Assembly: GCA_003228115.1 (NCBI GenBank)
Contig: QEVV01000002.1
Span: forward strand, 1-64,000
Origin: Chloroflexota bacterium
GTDB lineage: Bacteria > Chloroflexota > Dehalococcoidia > Lucifugimonadales > SAR202-VII-2
Reading direction: 5' to 3'
Length of the DNA stretch: 64,000 nt
Both the position numbers and the translations under genes were made by a program. Each line of letters opens with the position of its first letter. The first letter of the stretch is position 1. This document shows, one piece after another, positions 49,431-54,016 of the stretch. The notes under the pieces were generated by a model. The model searched no databases. It saw only the letters and a program-made list of their open reading frames with translations, and was not told where the DNA came from.

Positions 49431-49676
49431 CTAACGCAACTCGGCTATCAGATCTTCCTTGGGAACGCCAATACGAACGCTTACGACACTCAATAAGTCG
49501 TTCAAGGTACCTTTGGCTATAACTCGGTGTGCTGGGACACTCAAATGGTGTTGGCCAGAGGAGGTCAACTTGGTCAGCCGAACGTGGCTACCTTTCTGGC
49601 GAACGACCTCGTATCCCAATCGTTCCAAGAGTCGAACGAGGTTTTGACCGCTGACTTGAGGGAGGCCGTCAGACAC
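49431..49676 (-). CDS. hicA: HicA-type toxin (mRNA interferase)
   Basis: An 81-residue double-stranded-RNA-binding-like toxin with the catalytic His in RQKGSHVRLTK, the family's signature, and the preceding LERLGYEVV helix. The C-terminus ends with the helix GVPKEDLIAEL. It is longer than many HicA proteins (about 60) but within range. Its start overlaps the end of hicB by 8 bases. HicA cleaves mRNA when not bound by HicB. Confidence 0.9.
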   Translation of the reverse strand: MSDGLPQVSGQNLVRLLERLGYEVVRQKGSHVRLTKLTSSGQHHLSVPAHRVIAKGTLNDLLSVVSVRIGVPKEDLIAELR

Positions 49677-49872
49677 GGACCTCCGCCTCGGAGAGCAGCA
49701 AGATACTCAGAGCTTCTCCCTTCTCAAGTTGGTCCTCAAAGTGGAGCAGGGCGACCTCCTTCACATTCTCTAAGAGATCGTCAAGCGTCGCGCCCTGAGT
49801 GAAGAAGTCGGCGCCAATGCCCCGGCCGCACCAATACTCGCCGTCGTAGTAAGCCTCGACTTTTACCAACAT
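49669..49872 (-). CDS. hicB: HicB-like antitoxin (short form)
   Basis: A 67-residue protein with the partial RNase-H-like fold of HicB: VKVEAYYDGEYWCGRGIG, then the helix GATLDDLLENVKEVALLHF. It lacks the C-terminal DNA-binding domain of full HicB, so autorepression may be absent. It precedes hicA with an 8-base overlap, the usual order when HicB is first. The pair sits between pheS/CADD and pheT. Confidence 0.88.
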   Translation of the reverse strand: MLVKVEAYYDGEYWCGRGIGADFFTQGATLDDLLENVKEVALLHFEDQLEKGEALSILLLSEAEVRV

Positions 49873-51939: not shown

Positions 51940-52158
51940 GTGGCCTACTCAGTGACCTACAACGCTCCTGATTCCCGCCTCGGCAACGCCGATGTCGTTT
52001 TCACCGTAACGACGAACGAAGGCAAGCTCGGGGAACTGCACATCAGCAAGGGCGCTCTGGCATGGAAGCCCTTCTACAGCCACCATTCCTACAAGCTAAA
52101 TTGGCAAGACTTCGCCAGGCTTGCCGAAGAGCAGGGGAAGAAGGCGCCGGGCACCTAG
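51940..52158 (+). CDS. Conserved-looking small protein (72 aa)
   Basis: A 72-residue polar protein with an N-terminal beta-rich part (NADVVFTVTTNEGKLGELHISKG in pieces) and a C-terminal helix. The pattern KLGxLxxSKGxxxWxP followed by a helix is one I have seen in small uncharacterised bacterial proteins. Start GTG 51940 has AGGAGG 9 bases upstream. A weak promoter (CTGACC 51860-51865, TACTAT 51883-51888, 17-base spacer) precedes it. Divergent from pheS and convergent with the dprA-like gene. Function is unknown. Confidence 0.75.
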   Translation: MAYSVTYNAPDSRLGNADVVFTVTTNEGKLGELHISKGALAWKPFYSHHSYKLNWQDFARLAEEQGKKAPGT

Positions 52159-52175: not shown

Positions 52176-53069
52176 CTATAGTAACCGGCCCGGTACCAGG
52201 GCTAGCTCACCAGAGATGGAAGCCAACGCTGTCTTCAACGCTGTCTTGCTTTGGAGAGGAAGCGCTCCTTCACCTAAGAGAAGCTTGTTGCCTTTTGCAC
52301 TTGGGTTGTTCGTATACTCAATGACCCACAAGGGCTTGCGCTGAGTTAGGCACTCCCGGCCCGCATTGATGGTTCCCCCAGTTTCCCCCGCCTCCACCAC
52401 CACAACGCCATTTGACAAGCCACAAATGAGCTTGTTCCGCTCCATGGCGTTGTGAACACGCCACGGCATTCTGGGGGGAAACGCTGATACCGCTATCAAA
52501 TTGTCAGTGTTTATCAGGGGCCTGAGAGAACTGCGCGGTTTGAACCCTTCCATACCCTCAGGAAGCACGGCTACGGTCTGTCCTCCACCTTCCAAGGCGC
52601 CAGCGTGTGCCTCTTCATCGATCCCGCGGGCATGCCCGCTGACAACGATCAAAGATTGCTCTGCAGCGATCCTTCCGAAGCCACGAGCGTGCCGCAGAGC
52701 ATCTGGAGAAGCGTGGCGAGAACCGCAAATACCAATGGATCTAGCTGCTAGAGCATCCGACCCGCCCCAGACATACAGAACAGGAAATCTGCTGCTGCTT
52801 AACAAACGCTCAGGGTAAGCGGGGTCCGTCTTGATCAGGCATTCGACCCCTTGCTGCTCCAAGTCATCAAAGGTAGATTGATCTTCGCCGAACCTCTGCC
52901 GCGCTACCTCGACTCGTTCAGCCACCTTCGCCCCCATCACCTGAGCTAGCAGGGATAATCCTTCTGGCCCAAGGAGTTCAGCGTCTCCACCAGACCACTC
53001 CACTAACCGAGAGAGAGTTACCGGTGACGAACGAAATTGTTCATGGATCGCGCTCCAGAGCCAGTGCAT
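52176..53069 (-). CDS. DprA/Smf-like DNA-processing protein
   Basis: A 297-residue protein with the Rossmann-type DprA core. Recognisable parts are IGICGSRHASPDALRHARGF, VVSGHARGIDEEAHAGAL, GGQTVAVLPEG, RNKLICGLSNGVVVVEAGETGGT and INAGRECLTQRKPLWVI. Normal DprA reads RGIDxxAH, GGxTIAVL and RNRIIAGLS here, so it is divergent. No C-terminal winged helix is evident. The ATG at 53069 is 5 bases after the stop of the phosphoribosyltransferase gene. The two are probably cotranslated. It may act outside natural transformation. Confidence 0.88.
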   Translation of the reverse strand: MHWLWSAIHEQFRSSPVTLSRLVEWSGGDAELLGPEGLSLLAQVMGAKVAERVEVARQRFGEDQSTFDDLEQQGVECLIKTDPAYPERLLSSSRFPVLYVWGGSDALAARSIGICGSRHASPDALRHARGFGRIAAEQSLIVVSGHARGIDEEAHAGALEGGGQTVAVLPEGMEGFKPRSSLRPLINTDNLIAVSAFPPRMPWRVHNAMERNKLICGLSNGVVVVEAGETGGTINAGRECLTQRKPLWVIEYTNNPSAKGNKLLLGEGALPLQSKTALKTALASISGELALVPGRLL

Positions 53070-53074
53070 GTTTT

Positions 53075-54016
53075 CTATCCCCACGGCCAGCTCAGTAAGT
53101 CCATTCCGCGCGTTGCTGTAGCGTTCTTGGTCGCAACAAGTCCTAGAACCTCGATTGCTCCCGTCTTTCTGCAAAGTCCACAAACTTCTGCCATGGAGTC
53201 TCCCGTCTTATACAAGTCATCAATGATGATGATAGCTTCACCTTGTAAATCGCCCGCAAGCACGGCCGTAGCCCCTTGTTCTTGGTTAAACTCGGGCCGT
53301 GATCCATCAATGTCCTTCCGAGCCTCAACTCCAACAATTCTCCGCGGCAGAACGAGGCGTTTGCCGAGCGTTTCTGCCAGGCCTCTTCCAAGGTAGGTTA
53401 CCAAAGTCTCCTTTCGTGCCGGGTCAGAGGAGGGGACAGTAACGATAGTGTGGGCTCTGGCATATCGCGGATGCCGATCAATGAACTCAGTCATCCAATC
53501 AAGAATCTCCCCTGCCGCTTTCTGATTCCGGACTGGCACACTTTTAGTGTAATCCTTGGCTTTATACACCAACCCTCCCAACTTTGTGCGAACAAAGCCG
53601 CCTCCCGGTTCCAAGGGAATCGTGTGGGGGGCCAAGGCGTGAGATTCATCTAATCGATCCTCAATAGTCAGGCTGTGTCCCACCACCATTAGAAATTCTT
53701 CCAAATCTTCTTGCTGGACGTTCGACACCGTGAAAGCTTGCCTCGGGGCTGAAGGCAAATATTGAGGACCCGTCGGCAACGGACGTCGCATAGCGCTTAC
53801 GACTGCTTGCGGAAATGCCGCTCGTACGATCGAGCTCCAATCAACTGTGGAACCACCCTCGCAGGTCACTTCCGCAGCGACGGATTCCCCTAGCGCTATG
53901 AGCTTTGATTCCAACAAAAAGCTACAGAAAGCCATGTTGAGATCAAGACGGCGTAGGAGGGGCCCATATGTCAACGACCCTCTGTCCACCAGAGAGTGCC
54001 CTGGGGCTATTGCCAA
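53075..54016 (-). CDS. Phosphoribosyltransferase-domain protein with unknown N-terminal domain
   Basis: A 313-residue protein. The C-terminal half is a type I PRTase: TIVTVPSSDPARKETLV, then the PRPP-binding loop AIIIIDDLYKTGDSMAEV. The N-terminal 150 residues match nothing I recognise. Start is TTG 54016, 12 bases after the phosphofructokinase stop; ATG 53935 is an alternative. It precedes the dprA-like gene by 5 bases. Base composition dips here (53521-53580 is 47% G+C by count, against 65% in 54061-54120), which suggests transfer. It may be ComF-like, but ComF has a zinc-finger N-terminus, absent here. Confidence 0.82.
   Translation of the reverse strand: MAIAPGHSLVDRGSLTYGPLLRRLDLNMAFCSFLLESKLIALGESVAAEVTCEGGSTVDWSSIVRAAFPQAVVSAMRRPLPTGPQYLPSAPRQAFTVSNVQQEDLEEFLMVVGHSLTIEDRLDESHALAPHTIPLEPGGGFVRTKLGGLVYKAKDYTKSVPVRNQKAAGEILDWMTEFIDRHPRYARAHTIVTVPSSDPARKETLVTYLGRGLAETLGKRLVLPRRIVGVEARKDIDGSRPEFNQEQGATAVLAGDLQGEAIIIIDDLYKTGDSMAEVCGLCRKTGAIEVLGLVATKNATATRGMDLLSWPWG

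Follow-up and report, generated by a model that had tools for sequence, protein, structure and literature searches.

Two adjacent minus-strand genes in the 64,000-nucleotide stretch of Chloroflexota DNA analysed here (the window) quite likely form a horizontally acquired defence unit, in which a phosphoribosyltransferase (PRTase) would be the toxin and a DprA-like protein its antitoxin, of the kind represented by PsyrTA (RqlHI), ShosTA and DprA-PRTase. The PRTase gene comes first (53075..53935, minus strand; 286 aa from its ATG; called from sequence, Pfam and a structure model), and its ORF stays open to a TTG at 54016 (53075-54016, 313 aa). The DprA-like gene lies directly downstream (52176..53069, minus strand; 297 aa from its ATG; called from Pfam, PADLOC and a tree). 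Both reading frames are intact and on the same strand, and the 5-base spacing given in an earlier note on this DNA is exact, as measured from the PRTase stop codon (TAG) to the DprA ATG (53070..53074). Four terminator-like sites were identified against 2.5 expected, and neither local repeats nor promoter-like sites were found.

The downstream protein matches the Pfam family DNA_processg_A (E=1.7e-43). Its predicted structure (pLDDT 84.2) consists of an N-terminal helical region (residues 1-72; 52854..53069, minus strand), of which the first 25 residues are of low confidence, a DprA/SLOG Rossmann domain supported by both Pfam and the model (residues 75-286; 52212..52847, minus strand), and a disordered C-terminal tail ending in VPGRLL, delimited by the model and the tail alignment (52179..52208, minus strand). 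The model stops after the Rossmann domain in this disordered tail, in agreement with the earlier note, which had described a DprA core without a winged helix. The best structure match is DprA (3uqz), and ShosA (8zva) ranks fifth. In PADLOC, PsyrA is the best model for the window DprA (183 bits, E=1.8e-54), ahead of ShosA (144 bits), whereas the order is reversed for the host's own canonical DprA (ShosA 218, PsyrA 123 bits). PRTase-paired DprAs from other loci also favour PsyrA over ShosA, and the DprA of the ShosTA reference locus L073 does the reverse. In a tree of 27 DprA rows, the window protein grouped with PRTase-paired DprAs and PsyrA with a branch support of 100/99, apart from 10 canonical DprAs (row L011, which adjoins a RecQ-PRTase, is not among these 10) and from the ShosA of L073. 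Two PRTase-linked DprAs, L039 and L041, were placed outside this branch. These scores and this branching place the candidate antitoxin among the PsyrA-type DprAs.

The upstream protein matches the Pfam family Pribosyltran at E=7e-5, which is below the curated cut-off. It contains an intact IIIIDDLYKTGDS (53195..53233, minus strand; seen in the sequence and the model), with both aspartates present, which we take to be the PRPP-binding loop. Its predicted structure (pLDDT 74.8) starts with a beta-beta-alpha-beta-beta-alpha domain that extends to about residue 91 and is followed by the PRTase fold. This alpha/beta domain of about 90 aa (53663..53935, minus strand; local pLDDT 37-88) has no Pfam match, so that the earlier note was right to call the N-terminal part unknown, although it is nearer one third of the protein than the half stated; the structure prediction that the note had suggested gave no more than the alpha/beta layout. 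The VIA-align rows on the PRTase mostly span residues 113-275, and the absence of a match to the N-terminal domain among them carries no meaning. The standalone PRTases of L061-L067 and L088 have N-terminal extensions of much the same length, with DD found at about residue 225-259 (or further along in ORFs with an uncertain start), compared with 154-165 in short-type PRTases without the extension.

Similarity scores for the PRTase have to be read with care. Structural alignment of the PRTase model spans 163 residues with ShosT (8zvd; Z 11.4) and 157 residues with ComF (7p0h; Z 11.9), and because many PRTases reach Z 11-12, these values do not single out ShosT. Pfam found no helicase in the window PRTase, at 286-313 aa (the control L071 shows DEAD and Helicase_C), no HAD domain (the L073 toxin shows HAD_2), and no zinc ribbon (the host's own ComF shows DZR_2). 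The PADLOC models PsyrT and ShosT match the window PRTase with 25 bits each; they were considered as proof of a toxin and rejected, because the host's own ComF exceeds these scores (52 and 43 bits) and such matches therefore cannot identify the window toxin. The weakness of these matches counts among the points against the toxin reading.

The pairing itself is conserved well beyond the window. Ten PRTase relatives on genome contigs were picked by PRTase alignment alone, ignoring their neighbours (the contigs of L061, L062 and L065 also supplied alignment rows), and all ten have a DprA-like (8) or DprA-fold-like (2) gene directly downstream on the same strand. The eight loci with a DprA-like next gene are from Dehalococcoidia, other Chloroflexota, Streptomyces, Nocardia, and an Oscillospiraceae MAG. 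In the other two, a second partner of 186-187 aa is found, the start of which (GSR...GDANGAD) resembles the DprA fold and which Pfam recognizes only at E=0.05. A search of 301 Chloroflexota genomes that started from the DprA gave a two-peaked score list; 30 loci, including the window and some loci from earlier searches, were opened, and a PRTase ORF was adjacent in 27 of 30, two of these being only fragments. On viral contigs, all eight loci opened contain a PRTase and partner pair (two found by DprA alignment and six by second-partner alignment), while the PRTase alignment itself matched none of the viral contigs searched.

Members of the second partner family (186-197 aa) come after short PRTases and include L069 6462-7025, L070 641-1201, L040 923-1486 (minus strand), and L117-L122; six viral contigs have this pair, and no PADLOC model matched the L069 member. 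In four Chloroflexota MAG loci (L061, L063, L064, and L065), the PRTase-DprA pair has one common neighbourhood, with genes for a beta-lactamase-like hydrolase, a CoA-transferase-like protein, and an acyl-CoA-dehydrogenase-like protein (all named by eye), and the pair therefore seems to be vertically kept there. Locus L071 (NZ_OX030731.1 34646-45440) is a PsyrTA pair on a conjugative E. coli plasmid, in which the RecQ-PRTase and DprA genes lie between S and R of a type I restriction system.

The window locus is of a different character. The neighbours of the pair are housekeeping genes encoding pheS, a TENA-type protein, phosphofructokinase, DeoC/LacD aldolase, and methylmalonyl-CoA mutase; the window is no defence island, and the pair stands alone among these genes. 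The search for the same pair in defence islands that the earlier note had proposed recovered the pairing in several phyla and also on viral contigs, with no island at the window locus. A HicAB-type toxin-antitoxin pair adjoining pheT is also found in the window, at 49431-49872 (minus strand), 2.3 kb away from the PRTase and DprA-like genes; HicA was identified by PF07927 (E=8e-13) and its partner, a 67-aa HicB-like ORF, by position and look. A 72-aa ORF without a Pfam match is located at 51940-52158 (plus strand), between pheS and the PRTase-DprA pair.

In its composition, the pair departs from its surroundings. The drop in G+C to 47% at 53521-53580 reported in the earlier note was reproduced (46.7%), but the 65% given for the DNA just outside was too loose, as the adjacent 60-bp blocks have 50% and 61.7% G+C, and values as low as that of the dip are common, occurring in 3.3% of all 60-bp windows. 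A sounder signal is found over the entire pair: its G+C content is 54.4%, compared with 58.8% across the window, a value within the bottom 0.1% for 1760-bp windows, and of the 47 ORFs of the window, these two genes rank lowest in GC3 (52.3% and 57.0%; median 67.4%). Apart from the own genome, neither the 59 near relatives nor the 250 genomes of the order that were searched gave a clear ortholog. Matches of any kind were obtained in 6 of the 59 near relatives and 17 of the 250 order genomes, counts that include the own genome and are otherwise made up of weak matches; the weak PRTase matches, tried as orthologs, were set aside because both loci opened (L005 and L008) proved to be ComF. The odd composition together with the lack of a clear ortholog in relatives points to horizontal gain, which we consider probable for the window pair. 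A clean empty site was not found among the relatives opened, where flanking gene order is not kept; a candidate site beside pfkA was discarded, since L124 and L125 are not syntenic. Plasmid and phage records searched with P0002 gave no match.

The earlier note had suggested a conflict-type module rather than competence genes, and had weighed against this the possibility that the pair replaces ComF and DprA. A canonical DprA of 386 aa with a C-terminal extension (G000:C3) and a zinc-ribbon ComF (G000:C12) are both encoded elsewhere in the host genome, and a competence pair was therefore rejected. The suggestion of a conflict-type module is thereby upheld, but the module is not "undescribed," as DprA-PRTase systems are already in print. 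It might still be argued that the two genes are ComF-like and DprA-like paralogues serving nucleotide repair, DNA uptake, or recombination with no toxin role, and the agreement of their folds with DprA (3uqz) and ComF (7p0h) would fit this. Such a role is nevertheless improbable: DprA and ComF are already encoded by the host, the window pair has neither a winged helix nor a zinc ribbon match, and its patchy presence, low GC3, and paired homologues on viral contigs are not what this explanation would lead one to expect. Even less credible, to the point that we give it hardly any weight, is the idea that two unrelated genes have come to lie side by side through decay or chance. The pair is a singleton in its order and its tail motif is degenerate, but the frames and the PRPP loop are intact, the genes are spaced by 5 bases, and the same pair in the same order is found in other phyla.

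If the toxin-antitoxin reading is correct, the upstream gene would encode a PRPP-binding phosphoribosyltransferase toxin, and the downstream gene a DprA-like antitoxin restraining it. Upon infection or replication damage, the restraint would fail, the PRTase would disturb nucleotides or DNA, and the cell would stop or die, i.e., by abortive infection. In most relatives, a C-terminal clamp-binding peptide might hold the antitoxin at replication forks. Toxicity, neutralisation, defence, and the effect on nucleotide pools are all extrapolated from published relatives. In the accessible part of the RqlHI study, the PRTase domain of RqlH was needed for toxicity and the SOS response, yet insufficient alone (PMC4670107). 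By analogy, this would weigh against the toxin reading, as the isolated domain was not toxic by itself and the window toxin is without a helicase. For the same reason, helicase-free natural toxins may be useful for asking what the PRTase needs besides itself. The model for sensing in that paper, as far as its accessible part goes, is only speculative (PMC4670107). ShosT is described, in the portion consulted of a review citing Pu 2025 (PMC12593503), as being both PRTase and pyrophosphatase and as disturbing purine pools, and ShosA as binding DNA.

An unexpected feature of the candidate antitoxins is found at their C-termini. Peptides that bind the bacterial sliding clamp follow the consensus QL[SD]LF or six-residue forms, and Pol IV is a known clamp partner. 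Two patterns, Qxx[LMI][FLM] and QxxLx[FL], were derived from this consensus and fixed after the tails had been inspected. They were applied to antitoxin rows scoring at least 180 bits against a purpose-built model, itself built partly from those same sequences, with rows reduced to one per distinct stretch of 60 C-terminal residues and the loci consisting of about the best 30 from the 301-genome search plus earlier ones. A clamp-type peptide is present in the last 25 residues of 24 of 41 distinct antitoxins, compared with 8 of the 324 other ORFs (p ~5e-20 by Fisher's test, a significance inflated by related rows), none of 14 lower-scoring DprAs (11 canonical, L039 and L041 beside a PRTase, and one from a phage contig), and none of 28 PRTase clusters. 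In 1000 shuffles of the 41 tails, the mean was 2.4 matches and the maximum 8. After clustering at 50% identity, most members carry the motif in 8 of 16 antitoxin clusters (binomial p ~1.5e-9), and the patterns occur 0.585 times per 25 residues in the tails vs. 0.055 inside the bodies.

Among short antitoxins (<375 aa, stop to stop), 17 of 22 carry the motif. Four of the remaining five have near-forms (QLTLPV in L066, EQSLF in L088, QLEFQL in L101, and QLSLPA in L111), and the fifth is the window protein, whose VPGRLL stands where relatives have the clamp-binding-like QxxL[FL]; no such peptide was found in the window tail, which has no Q. Among long antitoxins only 7 of 19 have the tail motif; in the PsyrA of the E. 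coli plasmid, QPELF is internal rather than terminal, and the antitoxin of L073 (ShosTA) has no clamp-type tail motif. In the second partner family, 8 of 9 members (4 of 4 clusters) have a clamp-type tail, such as QMSLL, QIQMF, QINMF, and QSSLGF. The same peptides (QLSLF, QLTLF, and QLPLF) recur in Pol IV-family tails from the order of the host, but only 9 of 30 match our patterns, which must therefore miss many real forms; nor does a match prove binding. The host's own Pol IV (L143 1480-2550, minus strand) ends in QKAPRLL, with Q absent there too, unlike the QLxLF of several relatives. By the tail sequences, the clamp signal is strong at the level of the family and weak at the level of the window, where the lack of a Q in VPGRLL makes the clamp idea weakest.

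The sharing of a C-terminal clamp-type peptide by two antitoxin families leads us to propose that the antitoxin may sit on the sliding clamp at replication forks, where the PRTase would be harmless. Were a phage to capture, block, or remove the clamp, the antitoxin would then be displaced and the PRTase freed. This refinement of the toxin-antitoxin reading is tentative, and we put it somewhat below an even chance: the enrichment in antitoxin tails over other ORFs, lower-scoring DprAs, and PRTase clusters, the prevalence in the second partner family, and the likeness to Pol IV-family tails argue for it, whereas the post hoc definition of the motif, its presence in only a minority of long antitoxins, its absence from L073, and the window tail without a Q argue against it. 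The same peptide might instead bind the PRTase toxin, for example at its active site, in a plain type II toxin-antitoxin pair. Toxin-binding tails often sit at a disordered C-terminus, as the tail does here. Furthermore, RqlI binds and counters RqlH, with binding dependent on the PRTase domain, according to the accessible part of PMC4670107. However, the peptide fits both the clamp consensus and the tails of Pol IV in the same lineage, and it occurs on two different partner families, so that we regard binding to the toxin as rather unlikely.

Returning to the clamp proposal, it may be, although we would not yet bet on it, that PRTase-toxin modules guard the replication sliding clamp in general, with the window pair as a minimal, helicase-free member whose tail has drifted. 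The clamp-binding-like tail signature in PRTase-paired antitoxins is, as a sequence pattern, new; among the papers listed by literature searches, which do not prove absence, none links the clamp with PsyrTA, ShosTA, RqlI, or a DprA-antitoxin. If true, the tail would tie PsyrTA/RqlHI-type systems directly to the replisome, and may explain how replication trouble is sensed, thereby bearing on the trigger of these systems and on the role of a recombination-protein fold as antitoxin. It would also fit ShosTA, which has been suggested, in the material consulted, as a possible responder to replication intermediates. A clamp-aimed toxin system, RipA, is described in the accessible part of PMC12795458, in which the toxin itself acts on the clamp.

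Toxin-antitoxin or anti-phage systems composed of DprA and PRTase proteins are thus already known, namely PsyrTA/RqlHI, ShosTA, and the P2-hotspot DprA-PRTase, and on present sequence evidence the window pair is a new architectural variant of PRTase-DprA defence. It resembles PsyrTA/RqlHI in that a toxin gene with a C-terminal PRTase is upstream of a DprA-like gene, and PsyrTA in the tree branch and best PADLOC score of its DprA. By contrast, PsyrT/RqlH joins a RecQ helicase and a PRTase in one protein (712 aa in L071), whereas the window toxin is without a helicase, and many PsyrA proteins carry a winged helix in a C-terminal extension, which the window DprA does not have. ShosTA (PDB 8zva, 8zvb, 8zvd, and 9vzo) shares the combination of a DprA-like antitoxin with a PRTase toxin. 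However, in L073, a single reference locus, the DprA gene comes first and ShosT has an N-terminal HAD domain where the window PRTase has its alpha/beta domain of about 90 aa, and both the PADLOC scores and the tree separate the window DprA from ShosA.

The standalone pairs of L062, L066, L067, and L088, among others, are like the window pair in gene order, in the similar size of the PRTase N-terminal extension, and in a DprA without a winged helix, but share only 20-36% protein identity with the window proteins and have clearer clamp-type tails. Like the window pair, the DprA-PRTase system of P2-like phages, which is presumably the "DprA-PPRT" of DefenseFinder, consists of DprA and PRTase as two genes. 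The name DprA-PPRT is listed in the part consulted of PMC11291487, and the available text of PMC9122126 states that DprA-PRTase protects against T7 and lambda. Likened by gene arrangement alone, and from the accessible part of its description, this system (Rousset 2022) may be the nearest published system to the window pair.
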